DNA from: an uncultured Treponema sp.
GTDB lineage: Bacteria; Spirochaetota; Spirochaetia; Treponematales; Treponemataceae
Assembly (NCBI GenBank): GCA_946410085.1
Contig: CAMJZA010000024.1
Location: 1-45,810, forward strand
Reading direction: 5' to 3'
Length of the DNA: 45,810 bases
Position numbers and translations under genes: made by a program. The number at the start of each line of letters is the position of its first letter. Position 1 is the stretch's first letter. Below the pieces are notes generated by a model. The model saw only the letters and a program-made list of their open reading frames with translations. It was not told the origin of the DNA and searched no databases. This document shows positions 23,516-32,572 of this stretch, piece by piece.

Positions 23516-24889
23516 TCAATCTGAATGTCGCTCAGAATCAATGACATTCTGCACAATCCGTAGCTTCCAGGGTTTTGCGAGTACGGAACGCAGCGCAGTT
23601 TCATTTTCCTGACGGAGCGGGGTGTCTGCATGAAATGGATTAATCTGCTTAAATTCCTCTTCGGTATAGGTTCCCCAGTTTGCAATCTGCTGGAACCATA
23701 CCTCGTCTGCTTCCATTGATTCTGCAAAACGGCAAAAGTCTTCGAGTTCGCTGATGTTGTCCCGCTGTACGAGGAAATGAAAGATGAGTTTCTGTATTTT
23801 GTTTTCGGGCTTTTTTCTCCACTCTTTGAAAAAAATCAGATTTTCACAAAGAGTTTCCCATTTTGCTCCCCTCCGAATCTTTTCGTATGTCGCTTTACAG
23901 GCTGCATCGATGGAAACCTTCAGTTCAATCGGAAATTCGTGCAGGTTATTGAATTCCGACCATTTTGCAGGGGTCAGCAGCTGCAGGTTCGTAATAATAT
24001 GAAGGAAAAGCTTCGGAAATTCAGCGGCGGAAAGGGACTTATAAAAGCGGGAACATGCACTGCTTGCAAAAAGGTCCCCGCTACCGAGTCCTCCAAGATG
24101 CCGGCAGTCTTTGAGCATGGGACGGACCACGCTCATCAGTTTTTCATAGAGCGCATCGGATGCCGCTTTGTCGAGTGCCCGATGCTTGTTTCTGCATGAT
24201 GCACACCAGAGGTTGCAGCTTTCATCGCAGGAGAGCGTAATGAATTCCGGCGTATGTTTTATGCGGCAGTCCTTGTAGGACTGAACAGAATCAGATTGCT
24301 CTCTTGCAACAAACGAAAAATCATCTGGAGATGTTTCTGTATGGAAATACTTGCATACTTTCTGACAGTATTCAAAATTGCCGTTGGAAACGGAGTAGCG
24401 AAGTTTGAGCGCCTTTTCAGAATTCCAGATGGAATCAAAATTTGTATCGGTATAGATGTTTCCGATAAAATAATTGTGTTTGATAAATGCGGAGCAGCAG
24501 GTGTAAACCTCTCCGCGGGGTAGAATTTCAATGCATTTGAATGGCATTATGCATTTCTTATCCTTGAATGAACCGTCGTGCGGCCAGGTTCCCTGTACGA
24601 CACTCTCGTGCAGTTCGTCGAGGGTCTTGTTCCTGAATTTAAGGAAGTTGATTTCTTCCATAAGACCTTTGTTGCCTTCATATACGCGTAACCTGTCTTT
24701 CTCAAGTTCATCAAACTGCTCAAGTTGTTCTTTATGCTGCGCAGCCTGCTTTTTTAGTTCTGCAATCTGCTCCTGCAGTTGACAGTCCTGTTTTTCCAAG
24801 TCATTGACCTTTTGTTCCAGACTGTTGAGCTCAGATCTGAAAACTCGCTTGAAGAGTTTCTGCAATAGCTTTTTAATCAAATGCTTCAT
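23516..24889 (-). CDS. radical SAM protein with N-terminal coiled coil and SPASM-like cluster ahead of the core
   Basis: A 457-residue protein and last gene of the eight-gene run. Residues 20-97 form a heptad-rich coiled coil. A six-Cys region follows (C113, C119, C131-C132, C175, C179; FGNIYTDTNFDSIW-like spacing, here FIGNIYTDTNFDSIWN), which looks like the SPASM auxiliary-cluster domain. The radical SAM core comes after it, with the CX3CX2C motif at C225, C229 and C232 (CNLWCASC). In most SPASM enzymes the auxiliary domain is C-terminal, so this order is reversed. It probably reductively cleaves S-adenosylmethionine; the substrate may be a glycan or a peptide on the coiled coil's partner. 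GAGG lies seven bases before the ATG. Confidence 0.8.
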   Translation of the reverse strand: MKHLIKKLLQKLFKRVFRSELNSLEQKVNDLEKQDCQLQEQIAELKKQAAQHKEQLEQFDELEKDRLRVYEGNKGLMEEINFLKFRNKTLDELHESVVQGTWPHDGSFKDKKCIMPFKCIEILPRGEVYTCCSAFIKHNYFIGNIYTDTNFDSIWNSEKALKLRYSVSNGNFEYCQKVCKYFHTETSPDDFSFVAREQSDSVQSYKDCRIKHTPEFITLSCDESCNLWCASCRNKHRALDKAASDALYEKLMSVVRPMLKDCRHLGGLGSGDLFASSACSRFYKSLSAAEFPKLFLHIITNLQLLTPAKWSEFNNLHEFPIELKVSIDAACKATYEKIRRGAKWETLCENLIFFKEWRKKPENKIQKLIFHFLVQRDNISELEDFCRFAESMEADEVWFQQIANWGTYTEEEFKQINPFHADTPLRQENETALRSVLAKPWKLRIVQNVIDSERHSD

Positions 24890-24912: not shown

Positions 24913-26745
24913 TTAGTTAGATTTTGTGTTTTTCTTAAATTCTATAAGCATAAAATTTCCATAATCAAGTTCCAAAGATGTTGTTGCATTTAAATAAAGT
25001 CCAAGGTTTTCAAAGAAATGTGTATACTTGTCGTCTGGAACAAAATTTCTATCTCGTATATCATAGATAGTATTTTGAATATAATCCTCTATGCTGCACT
25101 GGTTTTGTGCAAAAGAGTTTATGTAGGATGTGTTTATGATTTTTGCTTTTGGAAAAGCCGAATCTGCAATTCCACAGTATTCTGAGTCCGTAATGAAAAA
25201 TGTATATGGCTCCATACAGATTCCTTTTGTGGATGACCGGTCTTTGAGGAGTAATTTACAGTTTTGCTTATATGAACTTATGTCAAATGACCGCCATGAC
25301 CACTCCCTACCTTTTTCAAAAGATTTTAGTGTAGATATGGATTGTACCATAAGCATTATAAGGCATACTATTTCTGTTGCTTTCAAGAGTGACGGCCGGA
25401 TATTTTTTTGCCAACCTGCCATAATTTTATCAAAGAAATAATATGCATATATTGCCAAGAAAAGCATCCCTCCTTCAAAGTATCTAGCATATCCGCTTGT
25501 GAATCCCCACAGAACAGTGCATGAGATTGTTACAAGTCCAAGGTAATCAAGATTGGATAGATTTTCTTCTTTACTTTCCGGCTTTTTAGCAAAGCTAATA
25601 AACCAGAATGTCAAACCTATAAGTCCAAGTTGGTAGAGAAAATTGAATTCACAGGGAATTTCAGATAACCGATGTTTTGGAAAGAATGCGAATACAGCTC
25701 CCCAGATGAATTTTTGAAGTGTACTTTGCGGTCCCCATCTTGTATCCACGAAATTCATGCGTGGAAAGTATTCAGATTGAAAGATGCTGTTAAACCAGGG
25801 AAAGACAGGGTTTCGTGTAATGTGATAGTTGTAAATGAAGAATGGCATACTGGGCAGGATTGCCAGAGAAACACAAATTAAAAATACTTTTAAAGTAATG
25901 GTTTTCTTTTTGGACAGAATATATGCCAATGCCAATGGAAATGCATAGATGATATTGGTAAGTTTTAAGGAAATGAGAAGTCCGCATAGTATCGAAAATT
26001 CGAGAGCGGGAGTTGAGTTTTTTTGTTTTTCTGCTGTCAGTAATAGAAACAGGCATTCCAATATAAATGGTAAGGCTAATGCGTCAACCATATAAGTGCC
26101 TGTATTGAGTACGATGTAATGACTGGTGATGAGAAATATACCGAACAGGGATTGTATCAGCCGATAGACGGTAATGCATCTACTTGCTGCCTGTTTTTCT
26201 GGAGGAAAGAGAATGCTTAAAATTCCTAAGAATTGAGTATATACTAGGAATAATGTGATTGAATTCAGTATAGTTCCAAGCCGGTAGCCTAAGCAAACTC
26301 TGAAATACCAGAAAGACTTGCTGCCAAGTGATGATGCCCATACCTGAAAATTTCCTCTGGCAAAGCCCTGTTCTGCTGAAAAGTAATTCGTGAAAGTCGG
26401 CCTCTGTGCAATCAGTTGATAATGAAAGGTGTCAAACCCATTGTCTGGATAAATAATTTTAAAAACAGATACAATTGTAATGATTATAAATCCAATGAGA
26501 AATTGTCTCCGTGAACAGGATAGTTTTGGAGCGTAAATTTTGTTTCTGAGCTTAAAAACTGGCAAAAAAATGATAAGCAGTGCAATGAGAACTGAAAAAA
26601 AAGAGTTTTGCGGTAGTTTTACAATTTTGCAGAATAAGTTGAGGAAAACTGTTGAGAGAATGAATATAAAATAGAGAAGAAATGCAAAGAAGAAAAGGGA
26701 ACTTACCTTTATTGTCTTTTTCTGTGATGTGATTTCTTTAGACAT
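24913..26745 (-). CDS. polytopic membrane protein, GT-C-like glycosyltransferase candidate
   Basis: A 610-residue protein with about ten or more hydrophobic helices. An acidic pair occurs in the first large outside loop (D101 and D105 in YPDNGFDTFHYQ), as in GT-C enzymes that use polyprenyl-phosphate sugars. A soluble C-terminal tail of about 110 residues follows. It overlaps the polyprenol-phosphate-type GT2 gene by eight bases, and such a GT2 would supply its donor. The DNA is far more A+T-rich than most of the window (21 of 60 bases G+C at 25081-25140). An O-antigen polymerase or ligase is the main alternative. No specific family is recognised with certainty. Confidence 0.65.
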   Translation of the reverse strand: MSKEITSQKKTIKVSSLFFFAFLLYFIFILSTVFLNLFCKIVKLPQNSFFSVLIALLIIFLPVFKLRNKIYAPKLSCSRRQFLIGFIIITIVSVFKIIYPDNGFDTFHYQLIAQRPTFTNYFSAEQGFARGNFQVWASSLGSKSFWYFRVCLGYRLGTILNSITLFLVYTQFLGILSILFPPEKQAASRCITVYRLIQSLFGIFLITSHYIVLNTGTYMVDALALPFILECLFLLLTAEKQKNSTPALEFSILCGLLISLKLTNIIYAFPLALAYILSKKKTITLKVFLICVSLAILPSMPFFIYNYHITRNPVFPWFNSIFQSEYFPRMNFVDTRWGPQSTLQKFIWGAVFAFFPKHRLSEIPCEFNFLYQLGLIGLTFWFISFAKKPESKEENLSNLDYLGLVTISCTVLWGFTSGYARYFEGGMLFLAIYAYYFFDKIMAGWQKNIRPSLLKATEIVCLIMLMVQSISTLKSFEKGREWSWRSFDISSYKQNCKLLLKDRSSTKGICMEPYTFFITDSEYCGIADSAFPKAKIINTSYINSFAQNQCSIEDYIQNTIYDIRDRNFVPDDKYTHFFENLGLYLNATTSLELDYGNFMLIEFKKNTKSN

Positions 26746-27679
26746 TTTTCTCTCTCCGTAATTCTCGCCGTATATTTATGAGGTTTATTTCAAAATCCTG
26801 TTTGTTTTTCATCGTTATTGTCTGCAAAGTTAATCCAGCAAAAAATGAATGTAAGGCAGCAAGCATCGTGAATCCACATACTATAAGAGTAGGAAACTTT
26901 GCTACTGTGTGTAGTTTCAGGAATGAAAGAAAAACGGGAATGAAAAATCCTATTGAAATACCGGCAAGGCAGATTGCTATTAACCCGAAAAAAGCCAAAG
27001 GTTTATAGTTTTTGAACAGACGCAGGATTGTCAATATAACCTTTAAGCCGTCCAGAAATGTATTGAGTTTGGAAAAACTTCCATACGGTCTATTCCGGTA
27101 GTTGACAGTAACGTTTTCTACGAGCATATTCTTGTCAATTGCGTGGATAGTCATCTCTGTTTCGATTTCAAATCCCCGTGAGACCACAGGAAATGTTTTT
27201 ACAAACAGATAGCTTAATGCCCTGTAACCAGTCATGATGTCCTTTATATCACTCTTGAACAAGGCGTTTATTGTTTCCTTTACGAGTGAATTTCCAAAGT
27301 TGTGGAAAGGTCGCCTGTTCTGATGGAAATATGTTGAGGAAAGTCTGTCGCCTATAACCATATCGACGTTTTTCTCCAGTACGAGTTGTACCATTTCAGG
27401 TGCGGACTCTGCCGGGTAGGTATTGTCGCCGTCGGTTATAATATAACATTCCGCATCTATTTCCCGAAACATACGGCGGATGACGTTTCCTTTGCCCTGC
27501 TGATACTCGTGGCGAATTACTGCTCCCTGGCTTTGTGCCATTTTTACCGTGTCGTCTGTTGAATTGTTGTCGTATACGTATATTACTGCTTCCGGCAGAG
27601 TTTTTTTGAAGTCAGAAACAACCTTACCAATCGTCTTTGATTCATTGTAGCAGGGAATAAGAACTGCGATTTTGTCCAT
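26738..27679 (-). CDS. GT2 glycosyltransferase, polyprenol-phosphate sugar synthase type
   Basis: A 313-residue DPM1/GtrB-like protein. The GT-A domain (about 1-225) has LIPCYNESKTIGKVV, the nucleotide-binding DNNSTDDT and the metal-binding DGDNTYP motif. Two C-terminal transmembrane helices (about 228-250 and 262-285) anchor it. Such enzymes move a sugar from UDP or GDP to undecaprenyl phosphate, and the GT-C-like protein encoded next, overlapping by eight bases, would use the product. AGAGG lies about eight bases before the ATG. Gap to the upstream methyltransferase is 17 bases. The sugar is unknown. Confidence 0.88.
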   Translation of the reverse strand: MDKIAVLIPCYNESKTIGKVVSDFKKTLPEAVIYVYDNNSTDDTVKMAQSQGAVIRHEYQQGKGNVIRRMFREIDAECYIITDGDNTYPAESAPEMVQLVLEKNVDMVIGDRLSSTYFHQNRRPFHNFGNSLVKETINALFKSDIKDIMTGYRALSYLFVKTFPVVSRGFEIETEMTIHAIDKNMLVENVTVNYRNRPYGSFSKLNTFLDGLKVILTILRLFKNYKPLAFFGLIAICLAGISIGFFIPVFLSFLKLHTVAKFPTLIVCGFTMLAALHSFFAGLTLQTITMKNKQDFEINLINIRRELRREKNV

Positions 27680-27696: not shown

Positions 27697-28293
27697 CTAT
27701 TTTTTGTTCAGAACTATCAGACTGTTGAGTCCCAGCTCGAACAGTCCGTATTTTTCCAGTGATACTGCTACTGTGTTGTTCTGATATAACTTTTCGTTTG
27801 TATCGATAACAAGATTTGCTATGTCTGTCTTGTTGAAATAGTGTTTGTGATCATGGATTTCCTCCTCACTAATCAAATGTACTCTGTATGCCAGAAATTC
27901 AAGTAGGGGCTTTGCCATTCTTGTTGGTGTAGTCATTATAATTCTCCCGCCCCTGCGTAATATTCGTGCCGCCTCTGAGACGACGTCGACAGGTTCTTCA
28001 AGATGTTCAAGTACGGCATTCAGAAAAACTGCGTCTACGCTTTCGTCTTTAAGGGGTAATGTGCCTCCAGATTCCTTATTATTTATCAGTGAGACATTAC
28101 TCTCCTCGTGTGTCTGTATGCGGAGGTCGAAACCGTATCCGTGATTGATCCTCTTTGCATGGGACAGAAGAAAAGCTCCCTCTCTTCCACATCCGATATC
28201 AGCAATGACAGCGCCGGTTTCTACATAGCGGTTTACCTTGCTGTAGCGAAATGCTGCTATAATCCTGTCTATCCAGTTCCAGTTCTTTCCCAT
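27697..28293 (-). CDS. class I SAM-dependent methyltransferase
   Basis: A 198-residue methyltransferase. The SAM-binding motif I is AVIADIGCGREGAF; the post-motif ILRRGGRIIMTTPTR and AVLEHLEEPVDVVSEAARIL are typical of the Methyltransf_11 group. The start at 28293 (MGKNWNWIDRII) has GAGG eight bases upstream and lies just after the previous gene's stop; a longer in-frame start at 28353 would overlap that gene. It probably methylates a sugar or lipid-linked glycan, judging by its neighbours. Confidence 0.85.
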   Translation of the reverse strand: MGKNWNWIDRIIAAFRYSKVNRYVETGAVIADIGCGREGAFLLSHAKRINHGYGFDLRIQTHEESNVSLINNKESGGTLPLKDESVDAVFLNAVLEHLEEPVDVVSEAARILRRGGRIIMTTPTRMAKPLLEFLAYRVHLISEEEIHDHKHYFNKTDIANLVIDTNEKLYQNNTVAVSLEKYGLFELGLNSLIVLNKK

Positions 28294-28315
28294 GTTGATT
28301 ACCTCGTTCCATTTT

Positions 28316-31300
28316 TCATGCAAAGTCTCCTTTGATGACATTCCAGGCTGCATCCATGCTGAAGTTCTCCTTTATGAACTCGATGCTCTTCCGGCTCATT
28401 TTTCCGAGTCTCTCGCCGTCGTCATACAGACGGAGGACGGCATCTGCGAAGGTACCTGCCTCATTGTGAATTGCCGCGATGTCCTCAATTCCCTCAATGC
28501 CTTCTGCACCGATGTCTGTGGTTACGATGGGAACCCCGTTGTACAGGGCTTCCACAACTTTGCCCTTTACGCCAGCACCATAGCGGAGCGGAACGACGAC
28601 AATCCTGCAGGAAGCATACAGCCGGGCAAGTTCTGCTTCCGTTACGAAGCCCTTGAAGATGATGCCGTTTCCGTCAAGCTCCTTGATTTCATCGGGAGCA
28701 TTGGAACCTGCGATATAAAAATCGATTCCGGGATTGTTTGCTCTGATTTTCGGGAATATTTCACCTGCGAACCATTTGACGGCATCAACGTTCGGTGTGT
28801 GCGAGAAGCCTCCGACAAACAGGATACCGCTTCGTTCCCGGGACTTGTACTGGACGGTAAGACTGTCTGTGTCAAAAATGTAGGCATGAATTGCCTTGAC
28901 GTGTATGGATGAATCAATTTCGCGTATTACCTTTTCTTCCAGACAGGACGGGTAATAGACGACATCGGCCTTGCGCATGATGGAGAATTCTGCGTTCCTG
29001 TTATTCTCAATATCGGGGAGAAGCTTTGTGTTGCCGGTCAGCTCATATTCCCGCTGTATCCTGAAGAAGTGCAGGTCATGCCCGTAATACAGGATTTTGA
29101 TGTCCGTCTCGTTCCGTATGAAGTCAATGTATTTAGCGGTGATGTGCGGCCTGTTCAGGTATGCGAAGTCGATGTATTTTTCATTCTGCTTTATATACGT
29201 GAAGATATTGTTGCTGTACCAGACGCCGTACAGGACTTCGACTCCCATCTGCAGCAGGATGGACATATACGGCTCCATCTCGGTGCGGGCATAGTTGTCG
29301 CCGATAAATTTTACGCAGAAACCCTTTGCAAGGAACATCTTGATGTACTGGAAAGTCGTCTTTGAACCGGCATCCTTGTCGAACGTGGGCACATAATGGT
29401 CTATGATAAGGATGACTTTCTTTCCGAAGTTCCGTTCCCGTGCCGGGAATGCATCTTTGTCGCCTGCATACTGTTTTTTCAGTTCATCTGCCCACTTTGC
29501 GATGAACTTGTCCCTGTTCTCCACCTGATACTTTTTGAGTCCGCTGTTTAAATCCGTACCGTTGGAGATGCCTTCAAAATGGACGACGGTGCTCTGGGGC
29601 TGGTACATCACCCTGTAGCCGTGCTTTCTTACTTCGAATGCGAAGTCCGAGTCCTCAAAGTAGGCGGGCTTATACCTCTCGTCAAATCCGCCGATCTCAT
29701 CCCAGAGTGTCCTGCGGATTATAATCGACGCACCGGAGATGTAGTCCACCTCTTTCACATAGTTGTATTCGGGAAGCTCCGGATTCTTGTCGTGTCCGTA
29801 GTTCCATCCGCTTGCATCCCGCCATATAATGCCGCCTGCTTCCTGCAGCCTGCCGTCGGGATAGACGAGCTTTGACCCTGCCATGCCGGTTGTTTCATCG
29901 CCTTGCATGAGCCTGACGAGGCTTTCAAGCCAGCCGTCCTGCACCTGAGTGTCGTTGTTCAGGAAAAGGATGTATTTTCCCCGGGCGAGTCTTGCGGCCC
30001 GGTTGCAGTTCATCAGGAAACCGTGGTCCGTTTCGTTGCGGTTGACGCGTACTCCGGGAAAGTAGCGGCAGATATCCTTTGTTTCGTCATCTGACATATC
30101 ATCGCCGATGATTATCTCGTACGCAACCTTGTCTGGCAGGGCAAGGATTGAGCGGATACACTTGTATGTGTATCCGAACTGGTTGTACACCGGTATAATG
30201 ATAGACACGAGGGGATTTTCGGACACCGGCAGCTCATGCACGGTGTAAGTCTCGTCGGCAAGAAGGACCGGGCGGTAGGTGATAGGTTCGGGGAGCGTCG
30301 GGTCAAATTTTTCCTCTTCAGCATATTCCTTCATGCCGCTCATTCCTTTATGACGAAAAATCCAGACAGCCTTCCTGAGTTTTCCGGGTACAAGAAGTCT
30401 GTATATTGCACGGATACATTTCTTTGTGAAGCGGAGTGGTCTGGTGATGCGCCATGATTTTGAGTGCAGGAAATCCTCAATCTGTTCTTCAAGGTCTCTG
30501 ATCCTGACGTTACAGTCATGTATCTGTTTGTCACGTTCGCGGATTTGTTTGTCACGCATGCGAATCTGTTCATTGAGGTTTTGTTCTCTTTCTGTCAGTT
30601 GGGCAATAAGGGGGTCCTTTTGGGCAAGCTCGGTATCGAATTGCTTGTAATGGTCTCCGTAGCTGCCTTTCCCTTCAAAAGCAACGGCATTTTTATGCTG
30701 CTCAGGTATTATCATGATATCAGTTCCTTTTTTTTCTATAATTCTTGATTCCATTTTTGTGACTGCGATGCTGAGGTTCCGGATGTCCGTTCCTACCGTG
30801 TAGCTTTCTGGCTTCCGTGCGTCCGGGAATTCCAGACGCAGCCTGACGTCCGGGCATACCGAAAGCGGAAGTTCAATAAGCAGCGTGCCTGCGCCGGAAA
30901 GCGTTTTTGTCCCGATAAACTGTTCATTTGCATATATGTGTATGGTCTGGGTACGGTATGTCTGGTCGATGGTGAACATAAGCTGCATCGCGCTTCCGGC
31001 AGGGGGTGCTGGTTCGGTGTGGAATGCGAATACAACATCCCGTTCGACGAACCAGCTGAAATCCTGTTCGCATCTGGCAATGCCGGAAAAGATGTAGGGG
31101 CTTGCGTTGAATCGCGGGGCATCGAAGTAGAGCGTCTGACCGATGGTATAGGTGAAGACGGTGTGGAAAAAGTTCCGGTCAGCTTGAATGTTCTTCCAGT
31201 ATTTCATGAGCTCCGGGAGATAGTGCTTCCAGTCATGGATGCCGAAGGGGAGGTCCTGCACATGCAGCCTTTTGTGCAGCGTTTCTTCCAGACAGAATAG

Positions 31301-32005
31301 TGATGCCGTCTCCCTGTCGGCAATTTTATAGGCACTGCCGTTAATCTGTCCGAAATAGGAAAAAAAACAGTCCTCCGGTCCGCCCCAGAGTGTTTTATAA
31401 ATGAAAAAACGGGACAGGAGCCGGATGGTTGCCCTTGTATTCCTGAGCGAAAGGCCCCCGTTTCCGACCTCGCAGCGAAGCAGCGGGGGCATAAGTTTTT
31501 TTGTCCACTGGAATTCTGCGAGCCGCTTGTGGTAACAGCTGTAGTCGATTTTCCCCCGGTTAAAAGCATGTAGCCAGGGGGCTCCCCAGTAATCATAGTC
31601 GTGTTGCGCAATCAACGTTTGCAGGTAGCCGGCATCCCGCAGAATGAGGGCATCGGTCTGTGCGATGAGCATGTATTTGAATGCCCTGAACCTCCGGTAA
31701 AAGCCGATGGACAGCATGAGCTTGTTGTATGCAAGGACATCCGTAAAAAAACGGGGGTCAAAAAATACTGTTTTGAGTTCAGGAATGCCATCGTAAACGG
31801 TCAGGTCAAGACCTTTCGGTGCAATGAGGAATACAGGAATACCATGCATTTTCTGCGTGGTATTCCGTATGGAGAAAAGTTCGTCATCGTCAGGATTGTA
31901 TTTGTAGACAGGGATTACAACACAGAGCGTTTTGGAATCGCGATTCTGTGTACCCCCCCCCCCGTTTTTATGCCGGCGTATGGCTGTCTTCCTGTCTGTG
32001 TTCAT
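28316..32005 (-). CDS. 1229-residue multidomain glycosyltransferase, phase-variable candidate
   Basis: Domains in order: DUF5672-like glycosyltransferase (about 25-285, including AQTDALILRDAG and WGGPEDCFFSYF); a beta-rich domain (about 290-415); a coiled coil with repeated RDKQI heptads (about 465-512); a short basic helix (515-550); a GT2 domain (about 597-850, VSIIIPVYNQF and FLNNDTQ at 682-687); and a C-terminal GT4 domain (about 870-1229, SGILFVGGFSHTPNVDAV and a GAGVKGKVVEAL end). It could build three linkages. Codons 15-18 are an 11-G tract, in frame as given; gaining or losing a G would shift the frame before any domain. The ATG follows the flavin-reductase stop directly (TAGATG), so it is translationally coupled. 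Confidence 0.88.
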   Translation of the reverse strand: MNTDRKTAIRRHKNGGGGTQNRDSKTLCVVIPVYKYNPDDDELFSIRNTTQKMHGIPVFLIAPKGLDLTVYDGIPELKTVFFDPRFFTDVLAYNKLMLSIGFYRRFRAFKYMLIAQTDALILRDAGYLQTLIAQHDYDYWGAPWLHAFNRGKIDYSCYHKRLAEFQWTKKLMPPLLRCEVGNGGLSLRNTRATIRLLSRFFIYKTLWGGPEDCFFSYFGQINGSAYKIADRETASLFCLEETLHKRLHVQDLPFGIHDWKHYLPELMKYWKNIQADRNFFHTVFTYTIGQTLYFDAPRFNASPYIFSGIARCEQDFSWFVERDVVFAFHTEPAPPAGSAMQLMFTIDQTYRTQTIHIYANEQFIGTKTLSGAGTLLIELPLSVCPDVRLRLEFPDARKPESYTVGTDIRNLSIAVTKMESRIIEKKGTDIMIIPEQHKNAVAFEGKGSYGDHYKQFDTELAQKDPLIAQLTEREQNLNEQIRMRDKQIRERDKQIHDCNVRIRDLEEQIEDFLHSKSWRITRPLRFTKKCIRAIYRLLVPGKLRKAVWIFRHKGMSGMKEYAEEEKFDPTLPEPITYRPVLLADETYTVHELPVSENPLVSIIIPVYNQFGYTYKCIRSILALPDKVAYEIIIGDDMSDDETKDICRYFPGVRVNRNETDHGFLMNCNRAARLARGKYILFLNNDTQVQDGWLESLVRLMQGDETTGMAGSKLVYPDGRLQEAGGIIWRDASGWNYGHDKNPELPEYNYVKEVDYISGASIIIRRTLWDEIGGFDERYKPAYFEDSDFAFEVRKHGYRVMYQPQSTVVHFEGISNGTDLNSGLKKYQVENRDKFIAKWADELKKQYAGDKDAFPARERNFGKKVILIIDHYVPTFDKDAGSKTTFQYIKMFLAKGFCVKFIGDNYARTEMEPYMSILLQMGVEVLYGVWYSNNIFTYIKQNEKYIDFAYLNRPHITAKYIDFIRNETDIKILYYGHDLHFFRIQREYELTGNTKLLPDIENNRNAEFSIMRKADVVYYPSCLEEKVIREIDSSIHVKAIHAYIFDTDSLTVQYKSRERSGILFVGGFSHTPNVDAVKWFAGEIFPKIRANNPGIDFYIAGSNAPDEIKELDGNGIIFKGFVTEAELARLYASCRIVVVPLRYGAGVKGKVVEALYNGVPIVTTDIGAEGIEGIEDIAAIHNEAGTFADAVLRLYDDGERLGKMSRKSIEFIKENFSMDAAWNVIKGDFA
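31953..31963 (-). repeat. poly-G (11) tract in glycosyltransferase coding start
   Basis: Eleven C on the plus strand read as eleven G in the coding strand, forming Gly codons 15-18 of the giant glycosyltransferase. This sequence is in the ON frame; ten or twelve G would terminate or misread the protein. Confidence 0.95.
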
Positions 32006-32572
32006 CTACTCCGTTCCGGTGAGCGCCTTGCCGTCCGAGAATGCTTTTCCGACGGCATCGCCGAGCACGTTGTAGTTGTGGCTGACCGGGTCGTAGCAGA
32101 TGGGCCTGAGCTTGGCGGCGTCTATCTTTCCGTCTGTCAGGATTGACTCGTCGGCGGAAACGTTCACGATGTTTCCTACGATATAGTCGCTGTCATCGCT
32201 CATGTGGGCGACTTCACATTCCAGTACCATCGGCAGCTCGTTGATGACCGGTGCGTCCACGAAAGAGGACTTTGTGACGGTAAAGCCCGCTTTCTTGAGT
32301 TTGTCCGGCTCCTTGTTTCCGCTGACGATTCCAAGGTAGTCGCACTCCCTGACGTGCGCTGCATCCGCCATGCTGACGGTAAAGGCCTTGCGTGCCGCAA
32401 TGTTCTTCGTGGTCTTGTGGCTTTTGTCCAGACAAATGCCGAGCTGGTTCGTATCGTGTATTCCGCCCCAGGCCGCATTCATCGCATCGGGATTTCCCGC
32501 CTCGTCATAGCTTGCGATAATGAGTACCGGCATCGGATACATGTATGTCTGCTTTCCGAAATCCTTTTTCAT
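32006..32572 (-). CDS. flavin reductase-like protein (flavoredoxin family)
   Basis: A 188-residue FMN-binding split-barrel protein. Features are the N-terminal PMPVLIIASYDEAGNPDAMNAAW, the central KNIAARKAFTVSM and a long beta-rich body. Family members bind FMN and reduce flavin or ferric compounds in the cytoplasm. AAGGAG lies about seven bases before the ATG. Its stop codon TAG touches the ATG of the giant glycosyltransferase. It may be part of the sugar operon or simply a passenger; the role here is not known. Confidence 0.85.
   Translation of the reverse strand: MKKDFGKQTYMYPMPVLIIASYDEAGNPDAMNAAWGGIHDTNQLGICLDKSHKTTKNIAARKAFTVSMADAAHVRECDYLGIVSGNKEPDKLKKAGFTVTKSSFVDAPVINELPMVLECEVAHMSDDSDYIVGNIVNVSADESILTDGKIDAAKLRPICYDPVSHNYNVLGDAVGKAFSDGKALTGTE

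Follow-up and report, generated by a model that had tools for sequence, protein, structure and literature searches.

The window, the whole 45,810-nt stretch of DNA analysed here, is one complete contig (C24) from a draft Treponema genome of 3.64 Mb in 134 contigs. Its minus strand carries a 1229-codon open reading frame (28316–32005) in which a DUF5672 module is followed by a coiled stretch and then by GT2 and GT4-type domains. The DUF5672 match (PF18922; residues 76–256, 31238–31780) scored 116.5 bits against a cut-off of 24.4, homology to relatives beginning at residue ~24, and the GT2 (PF00535; residues 600–734, 29804–30208; 94 bits) and Glyco_trans_1_4 (PF13692; residues 1059–1195, 28421–28831; 90 bits) domains were likewise above their family cut-offs. 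Single-sequence structure prediction for residues 1–430 gave a mean pLDDT of 28.9, and the DUF5672 alignment, searched against PDB sequences, returned nothing useful (best E 0.45). A flavin-reductase-like gene (PF01613; 32006–32572) lies upstream on the same strand. Downstream, also on the minus strand, are a methyltransferase gene (27697–28353) overlapping the end of the long frame, a GT2 gene (26738–27679) whose product resembles AglJ below the NCBIfam cut-off, a gene for a 610-aa protein (24913–26745) with no family above threshold and a weak PMT_2 (GT-C) hint (E 0.016), and a radical SAM/SPASM protein gene (23516–24889). The neighbourhood is likely to be a glycan-making cluster, its glycan presumably being located at the cell surface.

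The initial annotation had placed an eleven-G tract near the start of the long frame, and this is what was found: at 31953–31963, codons 15–18 read GGG GGG GGG GGT, an unbroken G11 on the coding (minus) strand and C11 on the plus strand, in a genome where GGG is a minor glycine codon (16% of glycine codons in 20 ORFs sampled). The same annotation held that no other run of this length was present, which is true of the window, where the tract is the sole G/C run of more than six (the longest A/T runs being of eight), but not of the genome, where several runs reach at least G11. The TAGATG junction with the previous gene is also present, the TAG of the flavin-reductase-like gene (32006–32008) adjoining the ATG of the 1229-codon frame (32003–32005), and a GGAG resembling a Shine-Dalgarno sequence (32009–32012, minus strand) lies within the previous gene's 3′ end. 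From the preceding TAG to the tract, the ATG of the long frame is the only ATG, GTG or TTG in frame.

The long frame is kept at G8, G11 and G14; the predicted effect of a one-base slip was borne out by computed products at G9, G10, G12 and G13, which stop after 29–38 residues. The gene shows two of the features expected of a locus whose translation is phase-variable through simple repeats, namely a repeat long enough to slip, situated inside the 5′ end of the frame, and a premature stop on a change of one unit. Beyond the tract, the first in-frame ATG, GTG or TTG is the ATG at codon 53, past a conserved C-V-x-I-P-x-Y-K motif; since the interval from the tract to this first conserved motif offers no usable start, the DUF5672 module depends on translation across the tract. 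A role for poly-G as ribosome-binding site for a later start was dropped, there being no in-frame start until codon 53. The initial annotation had named a true start beyond the tract as evidence against a switch; for the DUF5672 module this objection fails, although such a start is plausible for the GT2-GT4 half, at codon 431.

At the junction of the modules the sequence reads A8-GGAACTGATATC-ATG, comprising an A8 run (30728–30735), an AAGGAA 8 nt upstream of the start, and an internal ATG at codon 431 (30713–30715), all on the minus strand: a good ribosome site and candidate separate start for the GT2-GT4 half. A TGA in another frame lies four bases ahead of this ATG, and a one-base slip in the A8 run would bring the DUF5672 frame to a stop near codon 431. 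This is the usual arrangement of two adjacent genes, and the GT2-GT4 half may consequently still be made from the predicted codon-431 start in cells whose G tract is out of frame, which we regard as likely. The suggestion that the tract switches the entire giant glycosyltransferase can thus be retained for the DUF5672 module, which lies behind the tract, but is weakened for the GT2-GT4 half by its plausible start of its own.

DUF5672 was present in only 5/200 congeneric genomes and is therefore regarded as accessory. The nearest named relative is an uncultured Spirochaetaceae MAG, RUG11842, whose prefix suggests that the window's genome, too, has a rumen source. This sister genome of the same genus encodes both modules as separate genes on one contig, ~4.3 kb apart, its DUF5672 protein being 66% identical over residues 24–248 and its GT2-GT4 unit 83% identical, with a very different N-terminal part containing FrhB and pyruvyl-transferase domains. 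Because the modules are separate genes there, and lack the tract, a fusion specific to this lineage seems the likely origin of the ‘giant’ enzyme. The window's own genome holds a further DUF5672 copy (contig C22, 42% identical). No tract within the ORF was found in this copy, the RUG11842 copy or the other congeneric DUF5672 genes examined, and homology to the RUG11842 gene detected by blastn ended 26 nt from the tract, so that tract and start are not common to the two genes. A scan of viral contigs found no DUF5672 relatives. In one congeneric genome (G218; locus L214, contig C416), a G10 tract is placed ~85 nt ahead of the DUF5672 start, where it forms part of the 3′ tail of a neighbouring upstream glycosyltransferase gene. 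With ten Gs, the glycosyltransferase frame terminates only a few bases short of the DUF5672 ATG; the other phases terminate sooner. This single case suggests a second route by which poly-G might control DUF5672, through coupling.

Long G runs were counted genome-wide by pattern searches, supplemented by the stretches around tracts. The counts were 68 (G7), 24 (G8), 13 (G9), 4 (G10), 2 (G11), 1 (G12), 2 (G13) and 2 (G15), or about 24 runs of at least G9, dropping steeply up to G7 and flattening beyond. A fat tail of run lengths is expected of slippage-prone tracts. A first-order Markov model predicted 0.035 G/C runs of at least 11 in the window and about 2.8 in the genome, where 7 were observed, and 0.2 of at least 13, where 4 were observed; the same model overpredicts exact G7 runs about sixfold (about 395 expected, 68 found). 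Eight of the 12 tracts of at least nine judged intragenic fell in about the first 60 codons (p about 1e-5; p 0.01 when paralogous lipoproteins were counted once), values that serve only as a guide, the choice of genes and the rough 12% expectation having been set by the analyst. Taken alone, G11 is only moderately improbable, but its 5′-end position and the similar tracts elsewhere in the genome are not chance-like. In two genomes of another family in the same order (G070 and G056, 2.3–2.5 Mb), roughly 140 and 80 tracts of at least 10 were obtained with a pattern that counts each tract several times.

Several of the tracts of at least G9 in the window's genome lie in the 5′ part of lipoprotein genes and of one methyltransferase gene, and others upstream of genes for exported proteins. 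In one lipoprotein family (P0003) the poly-G tract is immediately 3′ of the lipobox region and occurs in mixed phases: two copies are in frame (C7:24582, G9; C28, G9) and three are out of frame (C31, G10; C40, G13; C7:20579, G8), with open frames of 494–1054 codons behind the tract. The family is similarly mixed in sister genomes, with one tract in frame (L133, G10) and four out of frame (L147, G8; L148, G11; L152, G8; L155, G9). Decay does not readily account for open frames retained beyond a frameshift, and their retention argues for reversible switching.

A second repeat type was also found, CTCTT arrays, each about 4 to 11 units long, occurring at eight places in this genome (C11:3–53, C12:39508–39563, C19:828–873, C29:37305–37325, C63:4673–4693, C73:19–64, C115:5–50 and C130:172–212). 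Several encode (LLFSS)n within the signal peptides of the poly-G lipoprotein family, and some copies seem to be out of frame; on C12 a G9 tract directly precedes the array. Elsewhere, a 251-aa methyltransferase (L058) has a G13 tract (C38:5741–5753) running in frame through its SAM-binding motif I (DLGC-GGG). Tracts of G8 (L196, C3:46205) and G9 (L057, C37:25471) each follow a TTGACA box and precede a short lipoprotein gene by ~70 nt; they are possibly switches of the promoter type known from the tpr genes of T. pallidum. Two G15 tracts at contig ends (C40:51–65 and C57:1–15) are each followed by an identical CGGGACCCGG sequence, which is probably a repeat between genes at which the assembly breaks.

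We consider it likely that the G11 tract serves as a contingency element, giving phase variation at the level of translation. Slippage of DNA polymerase would alter the length of the tract; at G8, G11 or G14, ribosomes starting at 32005 would read on into the DUF5672 module (ON, the state of the assembly), and at other lengths they would stop after about 29–38 codons (OFF). The DUF5672 module would be the first target of such a switch, while in OFF cells the internal ATG of codon 431 might still supply the GT2-GT4 half, or polarity might reduce it. Besides the frame analysis, support for the element is indirect, coming from the 24 or so runs of at least G9 and the eight CTCTT arrays in this genome, the mixed-phase poly-G paralogues in this and sister genomes, and the G10 tract ahead of DUF5672 in G218. 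Counted against it were the DUF5672 relatives that have no tract (C22 and RUG11842), the closeness of the number of long G runs to simple Markov expectation until a length of at least 12, and the predicted codon-431 start, which could blunt the effect of switching. We infer slippage in the DUF5672-GT2-GT4 gene, an altered glycan and a role at the cell surface.

It is nevertheless conceivable, though unlikely, that the tract is merely slippery, having arisen by accident in the non-homologous 5′ extension of a fused gene, where it would mutate fast without being selected as a switch. Such an origin would fit a tract and start not common to the sister gene (homology ending 26 nt away), the congeneric DUF5672 genes with no tract inside the frame, and the naive expectation of a G11 somewhere in a genome of this size; it fits less well with the position of the tract at the 5′ end and with the matching arrangement, in mixed phases, of an independent lipoprotein family. 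Even an unselected G11, moreover, should slip and truncate the protein.

It is very unlikely that the tract chiefly governs how far the downstream operon is transcribed or expressed, by polarity or as part of a promoter, rather than the frame of the enzyme. The downstream genes are compact, with one overlap, and the tracts that follow TTGACA boxes ~70 nt ahead of lipoprotein genes resemble T. pallidum tpr promoters (PMC7864442), but no promoter-like site was found on the minus strand near the G11 tract, which lies within the frame, downstream of the only start available. Less probable still is that the length or presence of the tract is an artefact of sequencing or assembly. Homopolymer lengths are error-prone, the genome is a single draft assembly of 134 contigs and both G15 tracts lie at contig ends; on the other hand, G11 yields the full 1229-codon frame, several other tracts also fit open frames, and in sister assemblies the lipoprotein family has tracts in the corresponding position.

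Beyond the phase-variable element itself, the data raise the more tentative possibility, to which we give somewhat less than even weight, that this probably-rumen, non-pallidum treponeme has a large poly-G and CTCTT repertoire and that the switch toggles DUF5672 only, the GT2-GT4 half being kept by the internal start, so that the cell would alternate between two forms of the enzyme instead of having it or not. A recent review points out that genomes rich in phase-variable loci have been recognised chiefly among pathogens, which may reflect a bias in the databases (PMC11868660). A gut-type treponeme with poly-G and CTCTT loci in lipoprotein and glycan genes would, if confirmed, provide a test case outside disease, in which the selecting force could be phage or host immunity. 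There is also a warning for annotation, in that several ‘short’ or ‘missing’ lipoproteins in this genome may be frameshifted switches.

The parallel drawn by the initial annotation with poly-G tracts of T. pallidum is loose: it extends to the type of repeat and the association with surface genes, but not to position, the best-studied tracts of that species (tpr, tp0126) sitting in promoters (PMC7864442), whereas G11 lies inside an ORF, downstream of the start codon. Its likeness to tprE/G/J/L, tp0126 and tp0127 (PMC7864442, PMC3373638) thus consists in related spirochaetes, repeat type and size (7–11 G) and surface genes; the differences are the intra-ORF tract, the non-pallidum species and the glycosyltransferase. 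Closer in arrangement are glycan genes of Campylobacter jejuni such as Cj1295 and wlaN/cgtB (PMC3068675, PMC7142995), where poly-G within a glycan-modification gene changes frame by slippage, although that organism belongs to another phylum, and here the gene is a DUF5672-GT2-GT4 fusion with the tract in its first 18 codons and a possible internal restart. The CTCTT leader repeats of Neisseria opa genes (PMC3745409) find their likeness in the lipoprotein family of this genome, which has the same unit in signal-peptide codons, although the proteins are unrelated and CTCTT is absent from the G11 gene.
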